A stretch of DNA of 64,000 nucleotides from Macrocystis pyrifera (taxonomy: Eukaryota; Sar; Phaeophyceae; Laminariales; Laminariaceae), in the NCBI GenBank assembly GCA_031763025.1, contig JASSKH010000028.1:1-64000 (forward strand), in the 5' to 3' direction. The position numbers and the translations under genes are program-made. Under the pieces are notes generated by a model. That model had not been told where the DNA came from and made no database searches. It saw nothing but the letters and a program-made list of their open reading frames with translations. Shown here in pieces: positions 5,096 through 54,514 of this stretch; positions within the stretch are counted from its first letter, which is position 1; every line of letters starts with the position of its first letter.

Positions 5096-7653
5096 TAGGG
5101 ATGTAGATCAACCCGTTTTCGGAGTTGATTTGATTGTTGATTAATTTGGCCCAATCGGGTTGATTTAATCAGGATTATTAGTTGGTTGTAATCTACGGAA
5201 TCAACCGGGGATGATGCGCTTTTAATCATGATGATTGTTGGTTGATTACATTGATCATGCTCAACGTTTTTCATAGATTCTGGCTGCAGCTTCCCGAGTG
5301 GGACCCTGCTGTGCTCATGCACGGATTCCCTTCCTCCACACGCTCTCTCTAGTGTAGCCTCCTGTACAATGCAGTACAACTGCTGCTCTGTTCTACTGCA
5401 CGCAAAGCGTCGGAAACACCAAAGCCCCAATAAAGCCCTCATATCACGTATGTATCCCCCCTTGGTATGTTGCCACTATTCGCGTGCTTACGATACAACG
5501 AAAGGCGCCATACTACTATCTCCTAAAGTATGCATGCTAGATTGCCGCCATCCTTCGCTGCGCTGCAAGCAGTAGCCAGACGGGACCCTACGATTGATTA
5601 GGTGGTGGGTAGCAGTCCGTTCAGAATACAGCAGCATAACCTTGTACCAGAGTTTGTGTTTCATGCTTTCACGAAGGAAAGCTATATCCTCGACCTGACG
5701 ATTGCGCTTATTGGTAACAAGTCCACCTACGGAAAAGACGCGTTCGGAAGCGGCAGATGACGCTTGAACTGCAAGGTACTTGCAGGCTAGCATGTCAGTA
5801 CGGGGATAGATGCACGAGGCCTTTTGCCACCGCCCAAGAGGCCCGCCTGCGGCTTCGATCGCACCCTCTGCAACCTCTTCCGACTTATTATAGAGCGCCC
5901 ATTCGTTCATGATTTCGTTCCTTTTGGACAGAGATAGCGTTTGCGGCTTCTTTGCGAGGGAAGCGGTAGCTCCACCGTGGGTGTCATCTCTGGTGTTCCT
6001 TCTGAAGAAGGCTCTTTCTCCCAGCCGCCTCCGGCATGAGACCGCCGAGAGACGTTCCGCCAACATCAGCGTCGACTTTCCTGACCTCTTCTACGGTACT
6101 TGTCTTGTGGCCCCTTCTTCTGCCCGCCTAATAGATTCCTTTAGGTTGCGCCGCATACACGTTTTTTTACAGTTACAACAAGAAACACCTCTTTTCTATC
6201 GAAAATAATCATGTAATAATAGAGTGTTAGCGCAGAACGAAAATTTAATAGGGTGTTTTCGTCGGTAAACTTATCCAAAAATGATGTCTCTCCGGCATGC
6301 GCTTTATCAATTTTTAAATATTGGGATGAATTTAAGATCTTCTCGGAAAACGAGAACGGATGGGTGTCGATGTGCAATAATTTGCAAGTGCGTGGTATGC
6401 TGTACCAATCTCGTATACGATGGATGACCGCTGTGCGCTGTGTGCCCGAATCAAACGTTTGCTGCTGTTGTCGTGGTGTTCCTGAGTGTGCGGCTTGAGA
6501 CACAGCGCTCCGGCGAGCCCTCCAAAAAAAGGCACCGCGCCGAACCCGACATCAGCACAGCAAAGCAGCAGACAGAGTGCATACAGTAAATAAACCTTCT
6601 GGCGGCCTGCGTTTCATATCTTCTCCGTGCCCTGCCGCTCTCTCCCAGCACGTAGCAGCAAGGAACAAAAACAAGCAGTCAGAAACGACACAGCAAGATG
6701 CTGCACCTGCTGTATGTACGTGTGTACTCGTACTTTAACCCTAATAAAGTAGGTTTCGTGGTACCAAGGTTCCAGGTACCGGTATATGATCACGATAGAA
6801 GAGCGCGGCTTCGGACACACTACGCACGAAAACACGAGACAGAGAGGGAAGCAGGAGAACCACCAGAGAGAAAGACAAACGTACTTGATCCTCAAAGGAG
6901 CTGCACCCGGCGACCACAGCTAGACGTGCGTCGCCTGTCTCGTCGGAGCTGGCCGAAGAAGAGTTTTCGGCAGCCACATCTCTGCACACAGCGACAGCTA
7001 GCTGCTGCTGCTGCTGTTGCTACGGGTCTTGTAAACAGCAAGGTCAACGAGCAATAAAGGCGCAAAAGCGCAGGGAATCCGCCGTTTCCACATCACCAGC
7101 CCTGTCCCCCACCGTGACATATGGCTCAGACCGCGCGCCTATCGCACGGGGGCCTTCTCGACACGTGGAGGTCAAACGATGTCGCGAGGCAACGACGCAA
7201 GGGCGTGTGGTCACATGCCTCAGGTGCCAGCCAGTTCCATTTGGTCGCACCTACACAGTATTGTTTCGGGTGTGCTTGGCCAACCACGGAGGCTCAGGGA
7301 GATGTAGACCAACCGTCTAAACGTGGTCGTTGTCGTTTTCGGCTCTATGTATATTATTCTGGCTCTATGTATATTTGCCTTTCAAATATACATAACGCGG
7401 CCATATTTGAGTAAATTTCAGTAAATTTGGAAATAGTTATTTGCTATCCGTCGGTAACGGGGGAATACAAGTGGTCGTTATAGTCAAATTTGCACAAAGC
7501 GCTAACACTCTAATGACTTGACTATGATGATTAATCAACTAATCATCATTAGCTGATTAATAATCATTAATCAACAAAACTCTATCACGTCAATGATTAA
7601 AATCAACCACCAAAAATTAATCATAATCAACAGCATTGAGTTGCACATCCCTA
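5096..7653 (-). mobile_element. hAT-family DNA transposon with TIRs and TSD
   Basis: The element begins TAGGGATGT (5096) and ends with its inverse ACATCCCTA (7653). The flanking octamers CACCCGCA (5088-5095) and CACCCGCG (7654-7661) match at 7 of 8 positions, as expected for the 8-bp target duplication of hAT elements. Both subterminal regions are rich in ATCAACC/TTGATTAAT motifs, which resemble subterminal transposase-binding repeats. Inside, on the reverse strand, lies a hAT C-terminal dimerisation domain (5488-6066). The element is 2.56 kb, long enough for a full transposase, but no N-terminal catalytic part survives, so it is probably dead. It sits in the 9.5-kb intron between the exons at 1212 and 10842. 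Confidence 0.85.
5488..6066 (-). pseudogene. hAT transposase, C-terminal dimerisation fragment
   Basis: A 192-codon frame. It contains the hallmark of the hAT C-terminal dimerisation domain: YPRTDMLACKYLAVQASSA, then SERVFSVGGLVTNKRNR, then a FLRESMKHKLW helix. In intact hAT transposases this domain follows the DDE catalytic core and mediates multimerisation on DNA. Here the protein is about one third of the usual length. The region upstream of the start (6067-7500 on this strand) has no open frame with the catalytic core or a BED zinc finger. The C-terminal 45 codons after the domain are not family-like. I call it a transposase relic inside the TIR-bounded element. Confidence 0.8.
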
Positions 7654-25583: not shown

Positions 25584-26412
25584 GTGCCGTGTGCGTTCGC
25601 GACGCGGCTTTCCACTCGGGAGGATATCGACAGCACGGTGAGGGACCAGCGGCCGCCCTACAAGCTTCCGGATTTGCCGCAATGCTACGCCTCTGACCTT
25701 AAGGTCCCGTGGAGTAATGCCGTCAAAGTACGCTCATCTTTGGGAGGGCTCGACGGAGCGGGAGTTGTACGTATTGCTGGATGCGGGGACCTTTACCCAG
25801 TACAGTAACCGGGGGACAACTACATCAACGCAATGTGGGTGTTTGACTGGAAGGTTGGTGAGTACTGCTGGCTAAAAAAAGCTAAGGCGAGACTTGTAGC
25901 GCGGGGGGATGAGCAGAGACCTAACATTGATTTCGGGGAGTACTTTGCACCTACTATTGCTGTTTCGAGTGTTCGGTTGTTGACAGCGATAGTGTGCAAG
26001 CTGGACCTTGACTTGTGTCATGTCAACATTGAGCAGGCTTTCGTTCCATCTGACCTAAAGGAACGCGTATTCATGTGTTTGCCTCAGGATTGCGATAGAC
26101 AGTCGGGGACGATAGTAAAACTGAACAAGCGTTTGTACGGTTTGAAGCAGGCCTCACGGCAGTGGCATGTGCACGTTACTAACTGTTAAGGTGACTTTAG
26201 GGTTAACACAGTGCCTGGCAGATGCCTGCATGTTTCGTTGGATGGATGAGGGGATAATAGTGATGACTATAGTAGTGCATGTGGATGATATTTTTGCAGT
26301 AGGGGAGAAGGCAAGGTGTGACCAGCTTGGCAGGGACGTGGACCTAATGATTCCGGCTGAGAAACTGGGAGAGTTGCGTTGCTATCTGGGGTGGTTTTAC
26401 GAGAAGGGTTAG
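25584..26412 (+). pseudogene. Copia reverse transcriptase relic (RVT_2)
   Basis: Three adjoining frames (25584-25808, 25833-26189, 26167-26412) give the Ty1/copia reverse transcriptase: WVFDWKVGEYCWLKKAKARL, VARGDEQRPNIDFGEYFAPT, HVNIEQAFVPSDLKERVFM and RLYGLKQASRQWH, then the active-site strand VHVDDIFAVG. The usual box is YVDD, and here the Tyr is His. Frameshifts lie near 25815 and 26185, and there is a stop at 26410-26412. The Pro-rich hinge lies upstream and an RNase H relic downstream. Confidence 0.85.
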
Positions 26413-27571: not shown

Positions 27572-28096
27572 GAACATGAGTCGAAGATGCGGCTCCTCAA
27601 AACCCACTCCCGCACCTCTGAACGGCAAGGCAACGAAGCTGGCAAAGTACGTAAACAAAAATGAAGGGAAGACAAAGCCTTAAGGGGTAGCAAGAAGTCG
27701 TCAATGAAAGCCATCGCTATGCCACCCGCACGGGGGGGGGGGGTTGAGGAAGATGCACAGAAAAAAGCGAAAGTGAATACGGAAACGAAAAGAAAAATAC
27801 CACGGAAGACCGCAAGAACCACCTAAACCCAGCTCACAACTCCGAAACCGCGTCCTGGGTCACAAATGAGTGGCCATATACCCAGACCAGCCCCGGCACT
27901 GAGCGGGGGGGGTAGGCAGGACAAAATAGGTAAACACATGCCCAACCCAGCCCCAAAAAACGAAAACAACCAGAAACACACCGAGCAGAAACAAAACACC
28001 TCGCAAAGTCCAGGAAAACGACGAAAAGATGAATACCGAGTGCAGCCAAGAAGCGAAAATCAGCTATTCACGGGGGCGCCTCGAGATTCATCTACG
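27572..28096. other. Between copia and gypsy elements; no gene
   Basis: A poly(G) run lies near 27729. The right part may belong to the 3' end of the gypsy element, but I could not find an LTR or polypurine tract that settles it. Confidence 0.4.
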
Positions 28097-30202
28097 TTAC
28101 GCTGGACCCCCCTGTGCAAACGCGATAGCCAAGTGAATTTGCAGACACCAAGAACCTCGTACAGCTCTCGTCGAAGTCATGTAGCGCGCCGGAGAAAGAA
28201 GAAGCTTGATCGGTCCCGGGTCGTCCAAAACTCGAACTAAATATGCTCCATCCGTTGGTGTAGTTGCGCTGATTTTCCCGAGCCACCACAGACCGTCGTC
28301 GCCCTTGTACCAAACGTGGACCCCGTTGGGAAGTACAGTGTTGCTGTATCGGCGGCGACAATCGGCGTGCGATACGCAGCCATAGCCGGGTTCCAGAAAC
28401 CGCTGGCCGTTGCTCCGAGAAAGCTCCCGTTGTGCCGCGCCAATTCTCACTTGGCGGTACAGACGGTTGGTTTGGCGGTGTTGGTTCGGGGTGCCGGCCC
28501 AGTAGCGCAAAATTGCGTGGCGAGAAAGATGAAGGTCCATTTCCCGTTCCCAGGATGGACGGGATAGTCCTGTCCAGTGCGTCTCGTGCATCACCGCGAT
28601 GACGCCACCTAGACCTCTACTGATTGATGTCCAGTAATCTTTTCCACTTCGCGTCGTTGAAGAGGGGTCGAAACGTCGTCCTCGGTGACGTGGTACAGGG
28701 GGGATTTCTTGGAGAAGTTGTTGAGCACGTATTGCGTCAACCCCGCCCGGCAAATATTTCGGCATGTCGCCACGGTTGTGGGGGTTGGCACAGGACTTGT
28801 AGCGTTGAAATGATACGCGCCGGCGAGCCTTAGCGCCGGACATATCAAAAGGAAGATCCAAATTCAGGAGCTTTGTTCCGAGACGGGATCCGTCCGGGGT
28901 GTCCGCTGAGCAGCAGGGACCAACTGCAAGAACTTTGTAGGGGCCCGTCCAGTTGAGTGAGAGTTTGACCTTGAGGACCTTGGCATCCGTGTCGGGTTTG
29001 GTGCCCTGGCGGATGGTGGCCGCCGTATTGTACACCCAGACCCAACCGCCAACGTCAAATTTGGGGACCGGACGCAGAGCGTCGGAGAGGGCGGAGTTGC
29101 GGCGGTTCACGCGAGAAACAGTGAGGGCGTGGTGTTCTCGAACGATATCGTACGCGGACTGCTGGCGGTCCGTCGCCAAGTCGCAGTAGGTGAGGTTGTC
29201 GCGGGCCAAGCTCTGGTGGCCGGCGACTCCAGCACGCTCGAAAATCGTGAAAGAGAGGCGTGGTAGCCGACCCGTATCTACCTCGTTGAGAGCCAAACCC
29301 GTGGCGGCGCTGACGGAATTGTTGTATGCAAAGTGAACGTGAGGGAGCTGTTCATCCCAGTTGTTTTGAAGCTCGTTGACGGCCATTGCCAGCATCTTGA
29401 CCATCGTGTGGTTTACACGTTCCGCCCCACCGTTGCAGTTTGGGTGGTAGGAGCTGGTGGCAATTTTTCGAACCCCGAGAAGCTGATATATGGCGTGCGA
29501 AAGCTTGGAGCAGGGCTGAAGGCCGTTGTTCGAGAGGACGCTGCGCGGGCACCCCCAAAGAGGGATATACAGGTTCATGAGAATGTTAGCCGTGCCCTTA
29601 GCAGTGAACTCTGCCGCTGTGACGGCGTACATGTCGGCGCGGCGGCTGAAGCGATCAGTGACAAGCAAGATGTAGGTACCTCGAAGCGTCACCGGGAGAG
29701 GGCCGAAAAAGTCGATGTTGATGGCGATGCGGGGCCCGTCTGGAAAGGGCAACGGGATGGAGGGCCACCAGAACGTCTGCGGCGACCTTTCCCGTGCTTG
29801 ACACTTTAAGCAGTTGCGTAGCCACCACCGGGTGCAGATGCTCATACCGATCCACCAGTAGAAACGTTCGAGCATATGTAGGGTGCGCGTGGTTCCTAGG
29901 TGGCAGGAAGCCGTGGAAAGGCAAGCCTGCATGACCCAGGGGCGCATGAGCAACGGAACATAAATGCGAATAGGCTCGTCGTTCAATAAACAAGCCGTAC
30001 GACCCACCGGGCGTTGAATATCTGGAGCAGGGGCGGGGGACGGCTGTCGGACAAGTAGAACAATGCCCACGTCGGTGGTGTGCACGTGGCCTTTTTTAGC
30101 CAGCTCCTGAACCTTCGAAAAGCGAGGGCGCTGGTGGGAAGGGAAACACGACAAAAAGTCGGCTGGCAAAACTTTCGGCCGGCCAAGGGCTATGTAGCGC
30201 AT
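28097..30202 (-). CDS. Gypsy integrase with C-terminal reader-like domain
   Basis: A 701-codon frame. Residues about 75-150 form the zinc-binding region (ASCHLGTTRTLHMLERFYW, then CLKCQ). The catalytic core has the first Asp in INIDFFGPLPVTLRG, the second position in SNNGLQ, where the usual Asp is Asn, and the Glu in NGGAERVNHTM. The loss of the middle acidic residue should abolish strand transfer. After the core come GWVWVYNTAATIRQG and NWTGPYKVLAVGP. Near the end is GVHVWYKGDDGLWWLGKI, then YLVRVLDDPGPIKLLL, a small barrel-like module at about 28220-28375 in the place where other gypsy elements carry a chromodomain. Transcription would run leftward with the rest of the element. Confidence 0.85.
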   Translation of the reverse strand: MRYIALGRPKVLPADFLSCFPSHQRPRFSKVQELAKKGHVHTTDVGIVLLVRQPSPAPAPDIQRPVGRTACLLNDEPIRIYVPLLMRPWVMQACLSTASCHLGTTRTLHMLERFYWWIGMSICTRWWLRNCLKCQARERSPQTFWWPSIPLPFPDGPRIAINIDFFGPLPVTLRGTYILLVTDRFSRRADMYAVTAAEFTAKGTANILMNLYIPLWGCPRSVLSNNGLQPCSKLSHAIYQLLGVRKIATSSYHPNCNGGAERVNHTMVKMLAMAVNELQNNWDEQLPHVHFAYNNSVSAATGLALNEVDTGRLPRLSFTIFERAGVAGHQSLARDNLTYCDLATDRQQSAYDIVREHHALTVSRVNRRNSALSDALRPVPKFDVGGWVWVYNTAATIRQGTKPDTDAKVLKVKLSLNWTGPYKVLAVGPCCSADTPDGSRLGTKLLNLDLPFDMSGAKARRRVSFQRYKSCANPHNRGDMPKYLPGGVDAIRAQQLLQEIPPVPRHRGRRFDPSSTTRSGKDYWTSISRGLGGVIAVMHETHWTGLSRPSWEREMDLHLSRHAILRYWAGTPNQHRQTNRLYRQVRIGAAQRELSRSNGQRFLEPGYGCVSHADCRRRYSNTVLPNGVHVWYKGDDGLWWLGKISATTPTDGAYLVRVLDDPGPIKLLLSPARYMTSTRAVRGSWCLQIHLAIAFAQGGPA

Positions 30203-30678
30203 GGTGGCGTTGCACGCGGGCTCTGCCTGTTGTTCCCGAGCCCAGTCGGCGTGCGAATAGCGCGCTGCGGAATCACCAAACTGAAATTCGGCAGCTTCCC
30301 AAGGGCGTCCAAGTCGGTCGCAGTGACGGGAGGTGCGTCAGTTGGCAGCGGAAGCCGGAAAAGAGGAGTTCCCACGAGCTGGGCGCGGTCGCGGTCGGAC
30401 GGGATGGGTACCGTCGGGACGGACGAGGCGGCAGGAATCGAGGCCAACACGACGGGTGCGGGCGGTCGCGGTCGTGGGGCGCGGTGGGGTGATAGCACGC
30501 CGGGCTGATGGTCTAGGGGCCCCGCCGGTCCCGAAGCCCAAATCAACAGCAGGCGGCACGGTGCCAGCGGCGGCGGCACGGTGCCAGCGGCGGCGGCTGT
30601 TCTTCGGCGCGTCCGAGTTGAGATGTGCCCTGAAGACGGCAAAACGTTCAGAGGCGCCGAGTTGCCAGGCGGCGATAG

Positions 30679-31053
30679 GGCAGACGAGGCCGGATCAGTG
30701 ATCACAGCGAAATCTTCTCCCTGTAAAGTGCTCGTCGGGGGAGGAGCCCGCTGGGCGACATTCGTCGCTGCAGCGGGTGCTTCTGCAGAGCCCTGGCCTG
30801 AAAGGGAAGACGAGGCCGGAGCAGAGCTCACGGCGGAATCTTTGCCCTGTAAAGTGCTCGTCGGGGGGGAGGAGCGCGCTGGGCGACAATCATCGCTGCA
30901 GCGGGGGTTTCTGCAGAGCCCTAGCCTGAAAGGGAAGACGCGGCCGGAGCAGTGCTCACGGCGGAATCTTTGCCCTGTAAAGTGCTCGTCGGGGGGGGAG
31001 CGCGCTGAGCGACAATCATCGCTGCAGCGGGGGCTTCTGCAGAGCCCTGGTCG
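30679..31053 (-). repeat. Three-copy 126-bp minisatellite in gypsy spacer
   Basis: Units begin near 30679, 30805 and 30931 and share ccctgtaaagtgctcgtcgg and catcgctgcagcgggg blocks. On the reverse strand they encode a Ser/Pro/Ala-rich repeat between RNase H and integrase. The first unit is the most diverged. Confidence 0.75.
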
Positions 31054-31419
31054 CTCCCGGAGAGAACGACAAAAACCGAAGCGAAAGCGGCGTTGGCGGG
31101 GGGTGAAAAAGCCCTCAAGCCAGAACGGCGGTCGACGATGGCGACGGAAGCAGATACACGAGCGACGAATCTCCCCGAAGGAGCAGCGAGGTCGTCAATC
31201 CTCATACGTGGGCGTGTGTGCGAAAATCGCGAAAATCCGAAGATGTGAAAGGTAACCCACCCAAGACGGCATTTTCACTGCGGGACACCAGCCCACCCGA
31301 ACCGACACCAGGGGTCGGTGAAGAGCGAGGGCGAAGCCCGCAGGCTCGGATGAGGAAGATACCACCGTCCTCGACGGGGTTGAGGCAGCTAGACCCGCTG
31401 CGGTCGTATTCTGTGGCGG

Positions 31420-32040
31420 GCTACGGCAAGCGGGAAAGAAAGTCAGCATTTCCGTTGGCGCTGCCCTTGCGATACTCGAGGGTGTAGTCGAACGCGGTGA
31501 GGAACTCGAGCCACCGCCGGACTCACGCGCTGTGGTCCCCTACTTTGCCGATGCTCTCAAATGCTTTGTGGTCCGAAAATATTCGACACTTCGTGCCCCA
31601 CAGGTAACGTCGGAGTCGTTTGATGGCCCAGACAACGCTGCTAGCTTCCAGGTCCAACGGTGTCCATAACCTCTCGGAATCGAGGGTAGCGCGACTGATA
31701 TAAGAAATGGATCGTACCGAGCCGTCCGGTTGTTCTTGTTTTGGCGCGGCACCAAACCGTCGATGCAGGCGTCGCAGTAAACGTGGAAGGGGCGGAAGCC
31801 GTCGGCTACGGCGTCCAAGTCAGGGAAGACCAAAATCGGTGGGGCAGCGAGCTCGGCGAGGATCTGGCGGATGATAACTTCCATAGCCGACGTGAAGACG
31901 TATTTGACCCCCTTCCGGAGAAAGGTGATGAGAGGACGTAACCGTTTAGACAGGTCGGGCAGGAATTTGCGATAATATCCGACGCCGCCCATCAGGGCGC
32001 GGGCCTGCTTGAAGTTTTTGGGCATGGGCATTTTCATCAA
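31420..32040 (-). pseudogene. Gypsy RT connection and RNase H relic
   Basis: The frame from 32040 reads FKQARALMGGVGYYRKFLPD, the connection/thumb segment typical of Ty3/gypsy. RNase H follows (FHVYCDACIDGLVP, with the first catalytic Asp). The start of RNase H is shifted near 31740. The domain ends at about 31500-31425 in LEFLTAFDYTLEYRKG, then SANGNADFLSRLP, the canonical gypsy RNase H terminus with its Asp. A stop follows immediately. Confidence 0.85.
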
Positions 32041-32059
32041 AGCCGAATTTTTTTCCTCA

Positions 32060-33111
32060 TTAGGGCTTATACCAGCGGGCGAAATAGAGTGGCCCAGAAA
32101 ATTGGTGTCCGTGGCGCCGAGGCGAGCCTTCGAGGGGGGGGGAGAGCTCGAGGTTGTGTGTGCGCAGGCGTTCGAAGAGGGCTCGTATCGTCTTGACGTG
32201 GGTCGTCGGATCCGAGTCGAAAACGATCACATCATCAAGGTAGGCCGCCACCTGTGCCAGACCTATAATGACTTCGTTAATCACTTTGACGAACCAGCCG
32301 GGCGAAGCACTGCTGCCTTGGGGTATGACGAGCCACTCGTAGAGGCCCGTGGAGTGCAAAACGCCGTGAGATGGACGGTGTCCTTGTGCGCGGTAATCTG
32401 GTGGATTGAGGAGACCAAATCGAAGAGGGAAAACACCCGTCCCTTCCCCATGGAGTCGCGGACTTGGTCCACGCGTGGAATAGGCAGCTGGCTGAGGTTG
32501 CTGATCTGGTTGAATTTGTTGTAGTTCACGGTGATACGAACGCCTCCAGACTTCTTCGGGATGACCACCAGCGGGCTCGAGTACGGAGAGGTCGAGTGCT
32601 GGATCAGGCCTGCCGCTAGGTACTGATCCAAGGTGGCCCCCACTTTCTTGGCCAGGATGGGGTTGATGCGGTGCGGCCTGGACGTAACAGGAGTGCTTCC
32701 TTCCGGGACCGAGATCACGAAAGGCATCAACGAACAGGAACCCAAATCAGACTTGGACTTCGAGAAAACGTCAGGACATTTGCAGATAACGTCCCCCAGC
32801 TGTCCGATGGCCTCAGGGGTCCAGCCCGTGCCGTGAAGGTCAAAAGCCACCTCCCGCAGATGTAACGTCAAGCGTGCCCAGACGCGCAGGATCGAAGCGC
32901 GCTGTGCTGCGCTCAAACGCTCAAGCAGTGCAGGCGAGGGCGAGGCTAGAGCTGCGAGGGGGGAAGCAGTAACTGCTGAGACCAGACACACCTCAGAAAG
33001 TCCGGAGGGAGGGCTGGGTGCTCGGTTGTCCTGCTGCAAAACGTCCAGCGGGACGCTCAGCAGTGGGGCGTGGGCGACGCCAAGGGTATCCCCAGGCTCG
33101 AGAACCGACAC
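32060..33111 (-). pseudogene. Gypsy reverse transcriptase, frameshifted
   Basis: The 276-codon frame from 33111 gives the N-terminal spacer and then RT fingers/palm: YLAAGLIQHSTSPYSSPLVV, IPKKSGGVRITVNYNKFN, VFSLFDLVSSIHQI (first Asp). A frameshift near 32340 moves to the frame ending at 32060, which carries YEWLVIPQGSSASPGWF and the intact active site AAYLDDVIVFDSDPTTH. One shift separates the two halves of an otherwise well-preserved enzyme. The priming (PBS) region is not visible. Confidence 0.85.
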
Positions 33112-33113
33112 TC

Positions 33114-33350
33114 CTACGAGGGGAAAACCTGTCGTCCGGAGGAGACGAAGTGCTCCTCGACCGAGGGTAGGTCGGGCTGGGGCATCATGTCGACCAAGTA
33201 GTGTCCAGTGAGAGCCGGGGAGCCATCGCTTCGGACCAAGTTAACAGCAAGCAGTTGAGGATCGTCGGACAGGGTGACGCCTGCCACGCCCTCGTAGCGT
33301 AGATGGAAGTCTCCACCCGAAGCGGCGGGGTCGATGGCGTACACGGACAT
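33114..33350 (-). pseudogene. Gypsy protease-RT linker fragment
   Basis: A 78-codon frame just upstream of the reverse transcriptase. It reads YEGVAGVTLSDDPQLLAVNL, then LTGHYLVDMMPQPDLPSVEE. It is in line with the element polyprotein but has no recognised domain, and shifts separate it from the protease. Confidence 0.5.
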
Positions 33351-33575
33351 GCCTGTCGGGCGTGATGAACCAACTCCAGCTCTCCAAACCCGCGTTGATC
33401 AGACGGCCGAGGTGGCAGAGAGCGTTAGGAGCGGCTATTAAAACGCATCCAGCTGTCACGTCCCAATAGTACTGCATGCTTCATCACTGAGGGGGAACCA
33501 CGCAGGCCCAAACTGCGAGGGAGCAAGTGAGGTCAGTTTCTCGAACACATTGGACACACACACTCGTCGAAGTCT

Positions 33576-34046
33576 TCAGAGGCGCCGATTCGCCAACCCC
33601 CCCCAAAGAACGAGGAGCGCATTTCTGTTCGAACGCGAGGGATGCCGCACCAACCGAGTGCATGCGATCCAAAACATCTCGTCGGATGAAGTCTGTGGGG
33701 AATCAGTGTCAAGAAGCGCCACGCATCCAAAAGGTGCAAGAACGCCAGCTCTGCTGTGAATCGCGATTTTGATGGTAAAAGATGCGTCATCGAGGGTAAT
33801 GGTGCCCCTGACGAGGCAGGGGTCGTGTTCTGGCCGCACGATGGAGGGGTCGACACTGGGTGCGACAGCCGAAACCTTGGGGCTGTGATCCGCCGGCGCG
33901 TCAGAAAAACAGGTCGAAACCTCCACAGGAGGACCCGGGCAAGCGCGAGCCACGTCCAAAGGGCGGGGCGGCGCTGGTGCAATCTCATGAATTATGTCAG
34001 TCCTGGTTGGAGTGCAAGATTGATGAGAGGAGGCAGGGTGTGCCAA
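33576..34046 (-). pseudogene. Gypsy aspartic protease (retropepsin-like)
   Basis: A 156-codon frame. After a Pro-rich N-terminal stretch comes the strand FTIKIAIHSRAGVLAPFGCV and the active-site-like ALLDTDSPQTSSDEMFW. In retropepsins the site is D-T/S-G. Here Gly is replaced by Asp (DTDS), so the enzyme is probably impaired. A frameshift near 33590 leads to EDFDECVCPMC. It lies directly after the NADAR domain in the reading direction, which places NADAR in the N-terminal part of the polyprotein. Confidence 0.7.
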
Positions 34047-34079
34047 CCGGGTCTCACTTGAGCTGAGGGTGTCGTGAAC

Positions 34080-34395
34080 GGCGGAAAGAGCTTTACCGAG
34101 CTAATTTTTCCCACGCCACCGAGAAGGGTCTTGAGATCGGGGTCGTCTGCCCGGAGACCTATACCCCACACGGCGTCAAAAGGGCTGGCTTCAGCCAAAT
34201 GTTTGGTGCCAGTGCTCAATAGGAGCTGCTTCATGACCGGGTTCTGCGAGAATTTGGCAAAAGTATCAGTAAGGACGACGTCTTCCCGAACGCGGTCCCA
34301 GATAGCGCAGTCGAAGTTATGCACGCCTCGACCGAGGCGGTTGTGCTCGCGTGGGTCTGGCGAGGCCATAATCCGCTCTGTTGTGTCGTGGTCTT
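34080..34395 (-). pseudogene. NADAR (YbiA/DUF1768-like) domain in gypsy polyprotein
   Basis: NADAR-fold proteins such as bacterial YbiA act on ADP-ribose or damaged riboflavin-pathway intermediates. The frame from 34395 downward reads ERIMASPDPREHNRLGRG, then FDCAIWDRVREDVVLT, then AKFSQNPVMKQLLLSTGT, and LAEASPFDAVWGIGL. This is the family order of helix, W-D-x-V-R, A-K-F, L-L-x-T-G, and E-A-S-x-x-D-x-x-W-G-x-G. A frameshift near 34140 then gives the C-terminal W-R-G-K-N and L-G-K-A-L motifs with a stop codon at 34101-34103. The N-terminal part is removed by the junction with the non-LTR element. It precedes the protease in the same direction. Confidence 0.8.
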
Positions 34396-34412
34396 GGAAA
34401 GGCGTATGACTC

Positions 34413-36535
34413 TGTAGAAAGCGTACGACTCCGTCGACCGAGAGCTGTTATGGGGGGTACTCACACGTTTTGGCGTACCAACCAAGATGCTGCGAATTAT
34501 CCGTATTTTCCACGATGGGATGCGGGCTCGCGTGCGTACGGATGACGGCGAGCACTCGGAATGGTTTGATGTCACGCAGGGGCTGCGGCAAGGCTGTGTA
34601 CTATCACTGTTACTGTTCAACGTATTCTTCGCTGCTGCGTTACACGTCGTACTAATACGCTTTAGCCAAGACGAAGCCATCGTAAGGGATTTAGTCCAAC
34701 TCAGTGATGCTGGAGTAGTCGGAACGGAGGAGCAGGAGCCGTTGGCGTGCGTACGAAGGACTGTATGGGGCATGTTGTACGCCGATGACGAAGGAATTGT
34801 CTCGAAGTCGGCTGAAGGGCTCGCGAAAAAGATGACAGTCATCGTGACTCTCGCACCACCGCTCGTCTTCGAAGCAGCAGGCCAGAGGTATAAGCAGACG
34901 GCCCAGTTCTTATACTTAGGCGGCATTTTCCACGAAAACGCTGACCTCTCGCTCGAAATCGACCGACGGATCCGTCTCATGCGAGCATGCTTCAAACGGT
35001 TCGGCCCGGAGCTGTATGAGAGGACGACCGCCCCCCTTAGCCCGAAAGTCCGAATACTGAAGACCGAGGTGATTGAGATCCTACTGTACGGGTGTGTGAC
35101 GTGGACCCTCAGAGCGGAACACTTTGTCAAGCTTCGAACGGCTCACCACTCAGTCCTGTTGCGAGCCATTGGGTTCCAGCGCCGACATCGTACTGACCAT
35201 ACCACCCTCTCGTACGCGAAGGCCCTCAAGATGACACGTTGTGAGAGCATCGAAACGAGCATCCACGAACGGCGGCTCTTTTTCGCGGGGGCTCTTTTTC
35301 GCGGGGGGGGTGGCACGGCAAAGCAAGGATCGATTACCCAGTCGGGTAATGTTCGGGACGATGGCTGGTAGGGAGAACCCGAGCCCTGGCGGACAGTTTA
35401 AGACTTAGCATAGATATCTGATGCATAGTCGACAACCTTAGGGAGTTCCGAACCACCGAAGGGTCAACGGAACTTGTTCCCTTGGCATTTGGAGTTGAGA
35501 CCGCGCTGTGGCCCACTGCTGAAAAAAAGGCGTGGAAGTGGTACCGGGGGGTCCTCGAAGCAGCCGAACGGTTCATGGTGAGGTAGCACGAGGCTGAGGC
35601 TGAGCTGCGTAGGCAGCGCCGCCCATCCGCCGTGGGTGGTGTCCAAGGGAATGGGGGTAGGGGGGGGGCAACAAGAGGAGTGGCAGAAACCCGACAAAGG
35701 GAATGCGGAGAGGGGGCGGAAAGGAAACTACAGTGGACGAAAGTAGCAAGGAGATGGCAGACAGGGTACCAAGGTACCGGGCAGACTAGGAAGTAGAACA
35801 TGCCTATACTACCCGTGCCACCAGTTGGTGCAGCTGGTTCGAACGTGGTTTTCCTTTGTCTTCCTTTTGTTTTTTTCGATTATTTTTATTTCATTTTATT
35901 TTCTTCTTTTTGCGCTGACCCTATGTGATTTTTATTTTATTTCTTTCTCTTCTTTTCTCCGATTGATAAGCCTTATTGAAGGAGTCGTGTGGCGTGGGTG
36001 GATGACGAGCCTGCTTTGCTTGTTTCGTATTGTCTGACGCCGAGGGGCCGGGCATAGTTGACGAACGCTGGACAGAGGTTGCAGGCAGGGTAGCAAGGTG
36101 CCAGGCGGACCAAGGAAGACCCTGGCTGTGCTACTCGTACCATAAACTGCTGCCGCTACCTTGAGGATGCTTTGTGCGTTGGTTTGCCTGTTATAGTCCC
36201 TTGCATTTTAGTCATACTCTGTTGACGACGACTAGTGGTGTTTTTCTTTTTTTTTTTCCTTTTTTTTTCCAGCTCGTTCTTTTCAAGTGTCTGCCAGATC
36301 CCCTGCGGGGGGGGCACGATGGTTTGCTTCTTATTTTTTTCTTGTATTTTTTTCTCTTTCGAATGGTCTTCTCTGTTTTTGTTTTATTTTCTCTTTGTTT
36401 CGTTTCGTTTCTCTAGGTCATGGAATGTGTATGTCGTGCATGTCGTATGCAGTGTGATGATATGCCATTGCGTTGCATACGTGGCAACGTACTGTAGTTA
36501 TGTGGCGTCGCTTTGTGAACCACACCCTGGACAAT
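34413..36535 (+). mobile_element. RTE-like non-LTR retrotransposon, 5'-truncated copy C
   Basis: Begins inside the reverse transcriptase (gaaagcgtacgactccgtcg, equivalent to 53510 of copy A), directly abutting the truncated gypsy element. It runs through the C-terminal region and the family 3' UTR to about 36530. There a 1.4-kb tandem array interrupts it, and the family terminus (gggtagaaagaacggtttaatgtgaag) reappears at 37958-37985. Confidence 0.8.
34487..35371 (+). pseudogene. Non-LTR reverse transcriptase fragment (copy C)
   Basis: A 294-codon open frame, lacking the endonuclease and the RT fingers. It shows [20 protein letters not shown] (motif with G-L-R-Q-G), then [20 protein letters not shown], with the YADD active site intact. 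An internal deletion of about 40 codons follows the palm compared with the copy at 41198 (the [15 protein letters not shown] segment is absent). The C-terminal region [19 protein letters not shown] continues. A frame disturbance occurs at a duplicated ggctctttttcgcgggg near 35274-35310. Confidence 0.8.
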
Positions 36536-40960: not shown

Positions 40961-41195
40961 GGACGAAGAAAACACACAGCACGAACTACTCTGTAACACG
41001 AACTGCAGCGATACAGGAAGACAGTGGGGGTTAGATGGTGCTGCTGACAGCACATGATGGTGGCTGACGGTACTGCTGATTGTGATCGTACGAACGACGA
41101 ACCCCGTTTGGGTGTGGCACGAGGGGCCGTTTGAGGCTCAATCCCAATCAAACAACCGTCTCAGCTTCCCCAATACAACGTACACACAACGTGAC

Positions 41196-43536
41196 TGTTG
41201 CAAGAGCTTGGAAGACAGAGGAAAATCCCCCTGTACTTGTGCTTCATCGATCTGCAGAAAGCGTACGACTCTGTCGACCGAGAGCTGTTATGGGAAGTAC
41301 TCACACGTTTTGGCGTACCAACCAAGATGCTGAGAATTATCCGTAATTTCCACGATGGCATGCGGGCTCGCGTGCGTACGGATGACGGCGAGCACTCGGA
41401 ATGGTTTGATGTCACGCAGGGGCTGCGGCAAGGCTGTGTGCTGTCACCGTTACTGTTCAACGTATTTTTCGCTGCTGCGTTGCACGTCGTACTAGTACGC
41501 TTTAGCCATGACGAAGCAATCGTAAGGGATTTGGTCCAACTTAGTGATGCTGGAGTAGTCGGGACGAAGGAGCAGGAGCCGTTGACGTACGTGCGAAGGG
41601 CTGTATGGGGCATGTTGTACGCCGATGACGCAGGGATTGTCTCGAAGTCGGCCGAAGGGCTCGCGAAAATGATGACAGTCATCGTGACTGTCTTCGAAGC
41701 AGCAGGCCTTACGGTGTCGGAAAAGAAGACAGAGACTATGGTTCTACATACGCCAGACCAGAAAACCCTCGCACCACCGCTCGTTATTGAAGCAGCAGAC
41801 CAGAGGTATAAGCAGACGGCCCAGTTCTTGTACCTAGGCGGCGTTATCCACGAAAATGCTGACCTCTCGCTCGAAATCGACCGACGGATCCGTCTCATGC
41901 GAGCATGCCTCAAACGGTTCGGCCCGGAGCTGTATGATAGGACGACCGCCCCCCTTAGCCTGAAAGTCCGAATGCTGAAGGCCGAGGTGATTGAGACCCT
42001 GCTCTACGGGTGTGTGACGTGGACCCTCAGAGCGGAACACTTTGCCAAGCTTCGAACGGCTCACCACCAAGTCCTGTTGCGAGCCATTGGCTTCCAACGA
42101 CGACTTCGTACTGACCATGCCACCCTCTCGTACGCGAAGGCCCTCAAGATGACACGTTGCGAGAGCATCGAAACGACCATCCGCAAACGGCGCGTCTCTT
42201 CTTCGGGGGGGGGGTGGCACGGCAAAGCAAGGATCGATTACCCAGCCGGGTGATGTTCGGGACGATTGCTGGTGGGGAGAACCCGAGACCTGGCGGACAG
42301 GTTAAGACTTGGCATAGATGCGTAGTCGAAGACCTTAGGGAGTTCCGCGCCACCGAAGGGTCAACGGAACTTGCTCCCTTGGTGTTTGGAGTTGAGACCG
42401 CACTGTGGCCCACTGCTGCAAAAAAGGCGGGGAAGTGGTACCGGGGGATCCTGGAAGCAGCCGAACGGTTCATGGTGAGGTGGCACGAGGCTGAGGCTGA
42501 GCTGAGCAGGCAGCGCCGCGCATCCGCCGTGGGTGGTGTCCAAGGGAATGGGGGGAGGAGGGGCAACAAGAGGAGTAGCAGAAAACCCGACCAAGGGAAT
42601 GCGGAGAGGGGGGGGAAGAGGAGTAGCAGGGAAACTGCAGTGGACGAAAGTAGGAAGGAGATGGCAGATAGGGTAGCCAGGTACCGGGCAGACTAAGAAG
42701 TAGAACATGCCTATACTACTCGTACCACCAACTGGTGCAGCTGGTTCGAACGTGGTCTTCCTTTGTCTTCCTGTTGTTTTTGTTTTTGTTTATTTCATTT
42801 TATTGTCTTCTTTGCGGTGACCCTATGTGATTTTCATTTCTCTTCCTTTCTTCGATTGATAAGCCTTATTGAAGGAGTCGTGTGGCGTGGGTGGATGACG
42901 AACCTGCTCTGCTTGTTTCGTACTGTCTGACGCCGAGGGGCCGGGCATAGTTGACGAACGCTGGACGATGGTGGCCGACAGGGTAGCAAGGTACCAGGCG
43001 GGCCAGCAGGGAGACCCTGGCTGTGCTACTCGTACCATAAACTGCTGCCGCTACCTGGAGCATGCCTTGTGCTTTGTTTGGTTTGACTGTTATTTTTACC
43101 TTGGTTCTTAGTCTTACTCTGTTGACGACTAGGTGGTGTTTTCTTCTTTTTCTTTTTTTTCCCAGCTCGTTCTTTTCAAGTGTCTGCCACGTCCCCTACG
43201 TGGGGGTACGATGGTTTGCTGCTATACTGAAGTATATACATATACCAGGTATATTTTAGTTTCTTTTTTGTTTATTTTCTCTTTCGAATTGTCTTTGTTT
43301 TTGTTTTTGTTTTTTCTCTTTGTTTCGTTTTTGTTTCTCTAGGTCATGGAATGTGTATGTCGTGCCAGTCGTACGCAGTATGATGACATGGCATTGCATT
43401 ACATACGTGGCAACGTAGTATCTCTGTGGCGTAGCTTTGTGACCACAGAACTTGTATCTCTCTAGGTTTGAAGAATCGGCACGGACACTGGTTGTGCTGG
43501 ATGTCGACGCGTAGAAAGAACGGTTTAATGTGAAGA

Positions 43537-51212: not shown

Positions 51213-52016
51213 GTGGTGATGTTTTTTCTTCTTAACCCCGACGACAAGGAGTTCATCCCTCTGGCGGGACGGGTACATCACCACAGCAGAGAGCACTACA
51301 CGGGCTGTCGGGGGAGTGGAGAGGCTGGCCACAGCGTGGGTATGCATGCACGACAGGAAGGATGGGAATGTCGGCGTTGGCTGGGACGGCTGCATCCAGC
51401 CAACGGAAACCAAGGCGCGTACCGGGCTACGAAACGGAGAGCCACTTTCGCCATAGAGAAGAAAAAGAAACAAAAGAAGAAAAAAAGGAGGCGGGGACGA
51501 GCCTCACGTCGGCTGGCAAAGAAAGCAGCACGCGAGGCTCGTAAGAGACAGAAGGAGACACTGGTCGCGGTAGCGACCTACAATGTGCGCACCCTGGCTG
51601 TACAGGGGAAGAACGGGTACGGACATGACGAGAGTGTACTGGCGAAGGGACGGCAACTCGGCGGTGACTTCATTGGCCTGCAGGAAACCCGGAGGACCGG
51701 TAGCACGACGTTTCGTGCGGCAGGGTATCGCGTTTTCTGTTCAGGTCAGGAAACAACAGCTGCTAGGCAAGGGCTGTACGGAGTAGGTCTAGCTGTAAAG
51801 GAATCGTTGTGCAGTAAGGCTGTGTACACTCATCAGTTCATTGACGAGCGGCTTATGTCTATGCGCTTTGAGCTGGCTAGCAAATACAAGGCAGTTAATT
51901 TCGTCGTCGCGTATGCTCCAACTGATTGTACCAAAGACGTTGGACTGAAACGTAGCTTCTGGCAGAAGCTGGAGGACTTGGTGGAAATATCCCGACGAAA
52001 GAGTGTCTGTTTGTAC
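51213..52016 (+). pseudogene. Non-LTR endonuclease, N-terminal part (copy A)
   Basis: A 268-codon frame. The first 110 codons are basic and low complexity (KKKQKKKKRRRGRASRR), possibly nucleic-acid binding. The endonuclease-exonuclease-phosphatase fold then starts at VAVATYNVRTLAVQG (the Asn motif). It has GLQETRRTG (the metal-binding Glu), GVGLAVKESL and FVVAYAPTD. In RTE and related elements this enzyme nicks target DNA for primed reverse transcription. The frame ends at TGA 52016 while the domain continues in another frame from 52019, so one small indel separates them. Confidence 0.8.
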
Positions 52017-52018
52017 TG

Positions 52019-53822
52019 ATGGATGCCAACGCGCGAACTGGACAGAGGATGGAAGGGTGTGGTGATGATGAAAATAGAGTGCTTGGAGCATATGGGCGTG
52101 ATGTTCGTAATGATAATGGCAGACGACTCCTGTCGTTCGCCACCAATTGCAAGTTAGCTCTCACCAACACGTTTTTCAGCACGCGCAAGGGTGGGATTTC
52201 GCATACACACAACGGCACCAGCCCGAGTGACCGTAAGCGGATCGACTACATCCTAACCCGTCAAGCCCATCGACCTAGAGTACAAGATGTTAAAGTCGTC
52301 CCACAGCCTCCTGCCCCAGCTAAGGCTGACTCAGACCACAACATCTCGTATGTCAAAGTCCGACTCAGTGGTCACTTTGCGTCCAACAGACAAATACGTG
52401 GACCGACAAAACGCCGAGAGTTCGACAGGCAGCTTTTTATGTCCGATGGAAAGTGTCGTGAACAAGTAGTCGCGAGGGTCACCTCCACTCTCAACCAGCT
52501 TAACCAGCCCCGTAATACGTCTGGCATGGTTGAGTTTTTCACTGCGGCTATTATTGATGCGGTCGAAAAAGAGGTACCACCCCCTCCACGTCGCCACCGC
52601 AGACATGGATGGTGTGAGTCTTCCGAAACCTTGGCCGCATTCATATTAGCATGGACAGCGAGGGAGGATATACGGCAATTCCTGCGTGCCCACCCCCAGG
52701 ATAGAACCGCGTGGAAGACACTGAGGTCTGCGTGTGCGAACCTGCAGAAGGGGATTGCCGCAGGACTGCATGCGTACTTCGAAGCGTACCTCGCTGAAAC
52801 CGAACGACTACTAGCGAACAACGACCAGAGAGGCTTTTACAAGCACCTTAAGAGTACGGTAGGATTGGAAGGGACTAAAGCGAGAAGCGAACAGTTCATT
52901 AGGGACGAGGATGGCACGCTGTTGCGGGATAAGGTGCGAATTCGTGAACGGTGGGGGAGGTTTTACCACAAACTTTTGAACACGAAATCGCTTAAACTCG
53001 ATTCCACGATCATCGACCTCTTGCCACCACGACCGCTTAAACTGTCGCTCGGAGATGAACCATCCATGGACGAGATGACGGAAGCACTTAAGGGGATGTC
53101 AAACTGGAAAGCTGTCGGGCCAGATGGTCTCCCGGCCGAACTCCTGAAAATCGACCACCCCGCATTCGCCCAGTGCTTTCACAACATACTTGTCAATGTT
53201 TGGGTAACAGGAGAAGTCCCCCAGCAATGGAAAGACGCGATCATCAAGGTCCTTCACAAAAAGAAGGACCGAACTGATTGCAACAACTACAGAGGGATTT
53301 CGCTGGTTGCCCACGCAGGCAAAGTCTTGTTGAAAATCGTCGCGTCGCGCCTCAGCAACTACTGCGAGACCGAGGAATTACTCGCGGAGGAACAGTGCGG
53401 CTTCCGCCCCGCACGATCAACCATTGATATGTTGTTCGTCGTGCGCCGGTTGCAAGAGCTTGGAAGACAGAGGAAAATCCCCCTGTACTTGTGCTTCATC
53501 GATCTGCAGAAAGCGTACGACTCTGTCGACCGAGAGCTGTTATGGGAAGTACTCACACGTTTTGGCGTACCAACCAAGATGCTGAGAATTATCCGTAATT
53601 TCCACGATGGCATGCGGGCTCGCGTGCGTACGGATGACGGCGAGCACTCGGAATGGTTTGATGTCACGCAGGGGCTGCGGCAAGGCTGTGTGCTGTCACC
53701 GTTACTGTTCAACGTATTTTTCGCTGCTGCGTTGCACGTCGTACTAGTACGCTTTAGCCATGACGAAGCAATCGTAAGGGATTTGGTCCAACTTAGTGAT
53801 GCTGGAGTAGTCGGGGACGGAG
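52019..53822 (+). pseudogene. Non-LTR endonuclease C-terminus and reverse transcriptase (copy A)
   Basis: Continues the endonuclease with DANARTG (catalytic Asp and Asn), SDRKRIDYILTR and the terminal SDHN (Asp-His pair). A linker of about 200 residues follows, then the reverse transcriptase: [75 protein letters not shown] and [19 protein letters not shown]. Just before the YADD box an extra base near 53813-53820 shifts the frame, and the annotated frame then closes at 53881 without the active site. Confidence 0.85.
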
Positions 53823-54514
53823 GAGCAGGAGCCGTTGGCGTGCGTGCGAAGGGCTGTATGGGGCATGTTGTACGCCGATGACGCAGGAATTGTCTCGAAG
53901 TCGGCTGAAGGGCTCGCGAAAATGATGACAGTCATCGTGACTGTCTTCGAAGCAGCAGGCCTTACGGTGTCGGAAACGAAGACAGAGACTATGCTTCTAC
54001 ATACGCCAGACCAGAAAACCCTCGCACCACCGCTCGTTATCGAAGCAGCAGGCCAGAGGTATAAGCAGACGGCCCAGTTCTTGTACCTAGGCGGCGTTAT
54101 CCACGAAAATGCTGACCTCTCGCTCGAAATCGACCGACGGATCCGTCTCATGCGAGCATGCCTCAAACGGTTCGGCCCGGAGCTGTATGATAGGACGACC
54201 GCCCCCCTTAGCCTGAAAGTCCGAATGCTGAAGGCCGAGGTGATTGAGACCCTGCTCTACGGGTGTGTGACGTGGACCCTCAGAGCGGAACACTTTGCCA
54301 AGCTTCGAACGGCTCACCACCAAGTCCTGTTGCGAGTCATTGGCTTCCAACGCCGACTTCGTACTGACCATGCCACCCTCTCGTACGCGAAGGCCCTCAA
54401 GATGACACGTTGCGAGAGCATCGAAACGACCATCCGCAAACGACGTCTCTTCTTCGCGGGGGGGGTGGCACGGCAAAGCAAGGATCGATTACCCAGCCGG
54501 GTGATGTTCGGGAC
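53823..54514 (+). pseudogene. Non-LTR RT active site and C-terminal domain (copy A)
   Basis: After the shift the frame from 53835 gives [20 protein letters not shown] (YADD intact) and the C-terminal region ([40 protein letters not shown]) up to LPSRVMFG at the gap. It is almost identical to 41620-42255 of copy B. Confidence 0.85.

Follow-up and report, generated by a model that had tools for sequence, protein, structure and literature searches.

The closest described counterpart of the system considered here is found in Ectocarpus, where every family of one Gypsy lineage has a NADAR domain at the N-terminus of Pol (PMC12477816, Genome Biology 2025; this and the other papers are cited here from part of their text). 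NADARs borne by retrotransposons have also been described in Crassostrea gigas, but there they reside in ORF1 of Tx1 LINEs (long interspersed nuclear elements) and not in the Pol of a long terminal repeat (LTR) element (PMC12477816). NADARs remove guanine-linked ADP-ribose in DNA (see PMC11543638, PMC11125620) as well as in RNA (see PMC11833690). The YbiA-subfamily NADAR of Phytophthora nicotianae (PDB 8bau), a eukaryotic member that is active on DNA, is described outside any retroelement polyprotein, and other members act as antitoxins to the guanine-modifying DarT1 and to YarT (PMC11543638, PMC11125620). We have analyzed a stretch of 64,000 nucleotides of Macrocystis pyrifera (assembly GCA_031763025.1, contig JASSKH010000028.1, positions 1 to 64,000; the whole stretch is referred to as the window), which contains a decayed copy of a Ty3/gypsy retrotransposon with a NADAR domain.

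The initial annotation of the window did not count such an arrangement among the established gypsy features. In fact, it had already been published for Ectocarpus and is hence not new (PMC12477816); a search for literature pairing DUF1768 with gypsy turned up none. As in the Ectocarpus lineage (e.g. Gypsy-12_Ec32), the domain lies in the Pol frame upstream of the protease and reverse transcriptase (RT), and the NADAR of a publicly available Ectocarpus Pol shares 57% identity with that of L011, an unbroken Macrocystis copy. Judged by pairwise identities, the RT may belong to that lineage as well. There are differences as well: the assembly searched here comprises 537 Mb in 223 contigs versus 200.2 Mb for Ectocarpus, the elements form at least three families, and several copies of family B keep NADAR without RT. 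Compared to the portion of PMC12477816 on which we rely, the present analysis adds a second genome, linkage in RT-selected elements, conservation of the active site, selection between families, NADAR copies without RT and a separate clade of stand-alone NADARs; the remaining parts and supplements of that paper may hold some of these additions.

NADAR as a regular part of a Ty3/gypsy Pol

The Pfam NADAR profile (PF08719) matches the reverse-strand open reading frame (ORF) 33992-34447 of the window with E=1.3e-26 (94.2 bits versus a curated cut-off of 35.1), covering positions 51-138 of 163. The motif series that the initial annotation had read on this strand, with the C-terminal motifs after a frameshift, is present in full. 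More specifically, WDRVRED, AKF, LLLSTGTK and EASPFDAVWGIG are held in a single frame, and WRGKN and LGKAL were read by eye in another, with a TAG between them; the ORF at 33576-34100 starts with LGKALSAV. The feature is a truncated and frame-broken NADAR remnant at about 34050-34404 on the minus strand, somewhat wider than the 34080-34395 first assigned to it. The first frame spans about 34136-34404 (minus strand) and the C-terminal part extends in the other frame to about 34050, this low end being estimated. The N-terminal part of the domain, i.e. the first 50 profile positions or first third, including two of the nine site residues discussed below, is missing because homology to the sibling elements ends at about 34404: a DNA identity of about 89-91% reaches this position and then stops in 8/8 loci.

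A search of the genome with the NADAR profile placed all 150 scored matches, out of 1264 candidates, above the cut-off, and most of these covered nearly the full profile. The copies that were fetched represent at least three families, A (which includes the window copy), B and C; in NADAR, the latter two share 49-58% identity with family A. Unbroken frames exist in all three: L011 (family A, 1696 amino acids) and L012 (family B, 1231 amino acids) combine NADAR with RT and RNase H, and L037 (family C, 2349 amino acids) combines it with RT and integrase, with no match for RNase H. The DTG protease motif is present in L011 and L037. A gag-type zinc knuckle, CLNCxxxxHxxxxC, was found upstream of NADAR in 6 of the 22 loci scanned; in five family B loci the pattern also hits an unrelated stretch farther upstream, probably by chance. 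The order of the element is gag zinc knuckle, NADAR, protease, RT, RNase H and integrase. LTR pairs were found neither in twenty 10-kb stretches nor between the flanks of L011.

The association of NADAR with the element holds when the elements are selected without reference to the domain. The genome was searched with the protease-RT part of L011 lacking NADAR (75 of 4421 candidates scored, 80 matches), and the count was made over the 47 matches that reach the first 13 query residues and thereby define the NADAR site, the other 33 standing outside it. At least part of NADAR lies just upstream in 46 of the 47. In 27 of them the NADAR match, taken from the NADAR genome match lists, ends 256-336 bp upstream of the protease-RT match. 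For the remaining 20 the 800 bases upstream were fetched: 16 contain most of NADAR, often frame-broken, three (L043, L045 and L048) have no more than a portion of it, with matches over 54, 56 and 15 residues, and one (L057) has unrelated sequence upstream and no NADAR.

A comparable pattern was seen in public proteins searched with the RT-RNase H part of an Ectocarpus Pol, where the best 120 of 184 proteins were used. The identity of their RT part to the Ectocarpus NADAR-Pol is at least 54% in 81 of the 120 and at most 48% in the rest, and the lineage cut of 52% was chosen after seeing this gap. NADAR sequence, at least in part, is present in 31/81 proteins of the lineage, short fragments such as P0160 included, and in 0/39 proteins outside it. 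Where at least 550 residues precede the RT part, 19 of 23 lineage proteins hold the domain. A search with the NADAR of L011 among Pol-sized proteins returned just 1 of 1080 candidates; its word-based first look misses diverged sequences, and the RT-based search shows more. NADAR is a regular part of Pol in a Ty3/gypsy lineage, with the gag zinc knuckle before it and the protease after it, and the claim of the initial annotation that it belongs to the element and precedes the protease is borne out. Another gypsy-type Pol, public protein P0197 (2106 amino acids), has an RT 44% identical to the query, and its precomputed Pfam list includes a C5 DNA methylase domain (PF00145) and a chromodomain.

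Family B shows a further variant. The RT was undetected at E<=1e-8 in 8 of its 11 loci, although these were picked for open frames and the share therefore provides no estimate of frequency. All eight (L014, L015, L016, L017, L019, L020, L026 and L027) have a nearly full, stop-free NADAR. The zinc-binding domain of the integrase was found in the three that were examined (L014, L016 and L026), and in L014 NADAR and the protease region share one frame. The RT-less loci may represent a non-autonomous group that spread while retaining NADAR.

Active site and selection

The structure of public relative P0002, which shows 66% identity with the NADAR query from family A, was modelled with a block-mean pLDDT of 92-98 across the domain. 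The model has only two matches in PDB at E<=0.001, the Phytophthora NADAR with ADP-ribose (8bau; E=1.3e-12, TM 0.78 by target) and YbiA (2b3w; E=7.9e-8). In the Phytophthora enzyme nine residues (E43, K50, K75, R79, W89, R93, E125, D130 and W133, in the numbering of that enzyme) contact ADP-ribose or pyrophosphate, take part in catalysis or, in the case of K75, adjoin the site (PMC11543638). These positions were mapped by hand through the alignment with 8bau, and the gypsy domain has both the fold and the nine residues in common with that enzyme. All nine are retained in 27 of 30 genome copies, and L015, L022 and L024 have one change each; the choice of these copies, made on NADAR score or on an open frame, favours intact domains. 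Loci L001, L004 and L031-L034, which duplicate the places of other loci, were excluded from this and the substitution analysis, and L005 and L028, with one stop each in NADAR, were retained with the stop codons skipped.

The public Pols selected by RT are free of this bias, and there the residues are conserved in 20/21 (E43), 26/26 (K50, K75, R79 and W89 alike), 16/25 (R93), 27/28 (E125) and 27/27 (D130 and W133 alike) of the sequences, with all nine present in 13 of the 18 that have every position aligned. The window copy has N at the equivalent of K75 and E at that of E125. The latter position marks the subfamily: it is occupied by Asp in BC4488/DarT1-type NADARs and by His in phage, whereas Glu, the mark of the YbiA subfamily, is found in 30/30 genome copies. 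The NADARs of the DarT1 toxin-antitoxin systems have the fold and the E43/K50-type residues in common with the gypsy copies but carry Asp where these have Glu (PMC11543638). What Pol carries is a NADAR of the YbiA type whose active site is retained.

Selection was assessed from pairwise Nei-Gojobori ratios of nonsynonymous to synonymous substitution (dN/dS), counting only pairs with finite dS. For NADAR the ratios are 0.198 between families A and B (169/187 pairs finite), 0.185 between A and C (34/34) and 0.225 between B and C (22/22). The corresponding values are 0.221 (169/187), 0.124 (13/34) and 0.112 (1/22) for the protease region and 0.144 (26/27), 0.069 (16/18) and 0.133 (6/6) for RT, all of them rough, since dS between families is near saturation. 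A comparison of L011 with L037 gives 56% identity for NADAR, between linkers of only 21% and 29%, with 63% for the protease region and 77% for RT, whose identity came to 78% in another comparison of the two.

Several of these data weigh against a domain that is regularly present, selected and active. Besides the near saturation of dS and the preference for intact domains among the genome copies, NADAR evolves faster than RT, with a between-family dN of 0.35-0.51 versus 0.17-0.23 and a pN/pS (the ratio of the corresponding proportions of differences) of 0.41-0.52 versus 0.21-0.30. Its within-family dN/dS, 0.42 for A and 0.60 for B, is what copies in decay would be expected to show, though it is lower than that of protease (0.57 and 0.74) and RT (0.60 and 0.77). 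Four of the 23 long lineage proteins (P0139, P0148, P0170 and P0201) have no NADAR. Moreover, the equivalent of R93, which contacts pyrophosphate in the Phytophthora enzyme (PMC11543638), is C or S in 9/25 public Pols. The proteins with Cys at this position (P0137, P0141, P0146, P0150, P0154, P0163, P0181 and P0199) may have a different substrate preference.

Within these limits the comparison of families indicates that NADAR has been kept by selection together with its ligand-binding and catalytic residues, so that the Pol-borne domain most likely works as an enzyme. The sibling survey proposed in the initial annotation is in line with this, as NADAR resides in the same polyprotein and looks to be under purifying selection. 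The annotation had named the absence of a profile match and siblings lacking NADAR as refuting outcomes; neither occurred.

Relatives of the domain and surroundings of the window copy

Four stand-alone NADARs of brown algae (P0017, P0034, P0038 and P0059) are 53-57% identical to the family A domain, and their N-terminal segment, rich in Cys and His, could be a zinc finger. Unlike in the gypsy Pols, no retroelement domains were found in the three of the four that were checked. With P0018, a protein of a eukaryote, they group outside the gypsy NADARs in a clade of their own (support 100/99). A search of the present genome for such a stand-alone protein with P0059 (150 of 1351 candidates scored) gave no match before residue 46.

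In the free trees the members of families A, B and C are dispersed and the backbone is weakly supported; for the first tree, 14 short rows of 131 were dropped. A single clade of gypsy NADARs was not rejected in approximately unbiased (AU) tests, with p-AU values of 0.748 and 0.165 for groups that were both defined after a tree was seen. In the first test the group took in 46 public rows that group with family A in the first free tree, and 2 of the 121 proteins in the set at that stage show a protease motif. For the second tree 30 non-gypsy rows were chosen along with 16 from Pols; its p-AU test left out P0194 and P0111 and assigned P0065, P0100 and P0114 to gypsy by assumption. One clade of gypsy and host NADARs fared weaker in the second test (p-AU 0.10) and was not rejected either. 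The public data contain many other NADARs with 50-59% identity to the domain of family A, and the only named bacterial one listed is P0110 of a planctomycete (50%). Capture of the gypsy NADAR from bacteria, as has been proposed (PMC12477816), is possible.

The Ty3/gypsy copy of the window extends over 27892..34404 on the minus strand, and its DNA is about 88-91% identical to that of its siblings in family A. About 0.4 kb downstream of NADAR lies an aspartic protease remnant (33490..33699, minus strand), recovered by tblastn with the protease region of L011 at 78% identity with gaps; it reads LLDTDSPQT where L011 has LLDTGSPQT, the DTG motif being changed to DTD. The RT remnant (32035..32562, minus strand) has three stops and gaps in its tblastn match. 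The integrase region (28097..30337, minus strand) contains an H2C2 zinc-binding domain (E=8e-9) and an rve core (E=6e-4) under the curated cut-off. The copy in the window is dead. RNase H and integrase are separated by a spacer (30674..31050, minus strand) with direct repeats, each about 126 bp (42 residues) long; these vary in number among the siblings and are also seen at 6973-7595 of L021.

The broken 5' end of the element is adjoined by a truncated LINE RT ORF (34418..35371, plus strand; RVT_1, E=3e-9). It is one of three such ORFs on the plus strand of the window, the others being at 51956-53881 and 41195-42253, and by eye these are closely alike. In addition, the window contains a Copia-type RT fragment at 25809-26189 (plus strand; RVT_2, E=7.9e-27) and the C-terminal dimerisation region of a hAT transposase at 5488-6090 (minus strand; E=5.8e-9). 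In the segment 57771-61132 (plus strand), LNR/Notch repeats precede a long ORF that matches the repeats of Chlamydia-type polymorphic membrane proteins (E=2.1e-26); the whole may be a single host gene.

Proposed function and its meaning

The best explanation of these data, to which we would grant about an even chance, is that a YbiA-type NADAR is kept by selection in the gypsy Pol and most likely acts as an enzyme on guanine-linked ADP-ribose of the element's RNA or complementary DNA (cDNA). The most likely activity would be that of a hydrolase stripping ADP-ribose or a related adduct from guanine. The domain would ride with Pol into the virus-like particle, where the adjoining protease would perhaps release it. 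There it would hydrolyse the N-glycosidic link of the ADP-ribose, or related ribosyl adduct, on guanines of the RNA or single-stranded cDNA, and thereby keep the template readable for the RT. Either a host defence enzyme or damage may be the source of the adducts.

The initial annotation had suggested a counter to ADP-ribosylation-based host defence. In this more specific form NADAR would reverse host ADP-ribosylation of the element's nucleic acids in the way of the bacterial DarT1-NADAR antitoxins, a tentative proposal that we rate well below the broader enzymatic one. The retained active site and the antitoxin role of NADARs speak for it. However, the gypsy copies have the YbiA-type glutamate and not the aspartate of the DarT1-linked NADARs, and NADARs of other contexts gave inefficient protection against DarT1 (PMC11125620). 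With the same reserve, the gypsy Pol may be regarded as a possible retrotransposon-encoded eraser, the LTR-retrotransposon counterpart of the phage and bacterial NADARs, whose hydrolase would reverse the ADP-ribosylation of guanines in retroelement RNA or cDNA by the host or its microbes.

It is unlikely that NADAR serves as a reader, binding ADP-ribose marks and thereby directing integration by the Pol complex towards damaged DNA or ADP-ribosylated chromatin, with catalysis being unneeded. Chromatin reader domains do occur in Ectocarpus families of all four Gypsy lineages, with three putative chromodomains, that of Gypsy-12_Ec32 included (PMC12477816), and the copies of the present genome give weak Chromo matches (E=0.01 to 0.09, under the cut-off). 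Nevertheless, E43 and E125 are retained, which a pure binding function would perhaps not need, and the domain sits at the N-terminus of Pol, away from the integrase.

Still less probable is a metabolic or damage-control N-glycosidase whose substrates, in the particle or close to it, would be small molecules, namely intermediates of riboflavin or ribosides derived from NAD. According to PMC11543638, YbiA itself acts on riboflavin intermediates; the substrate could therefore be something other than ADP-ribosyl-guanine, a point that counts against our preferred reading. A retrotransposon polyprotein would have no reason to need such an activity, and the fusion to Pol would point to a nucleic acid substrate; the processing of NAD-derived metabolites raised by the initial annotation is possible but less likely. 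Finally, a host-gene fragment captured by chance beside the element has practically no probability left: the window copy itself is truncated and frame-broken, but three families carry the domain in one Pol frame, the named brown-algal stand-alone NADARs form a separate clade, and the idea is refuted by the 46 of 47 protease-RT-selected siblings that hold NADAR at the same place.

The presence of NADAR in Pol poses a clear question on its substrate, and the evidence on selection and the active site makes an enzymatic role likelier than that of a passenger domain. Bacterial toxins and phage defence are the main settings in which DNA and RNA are known to be ADP-ribosylated. An apparently numerous lineage of eukaryotic retrotransposons with a selected eraser that looks to be working suggests that such modifications meet retroelements in algae as well.
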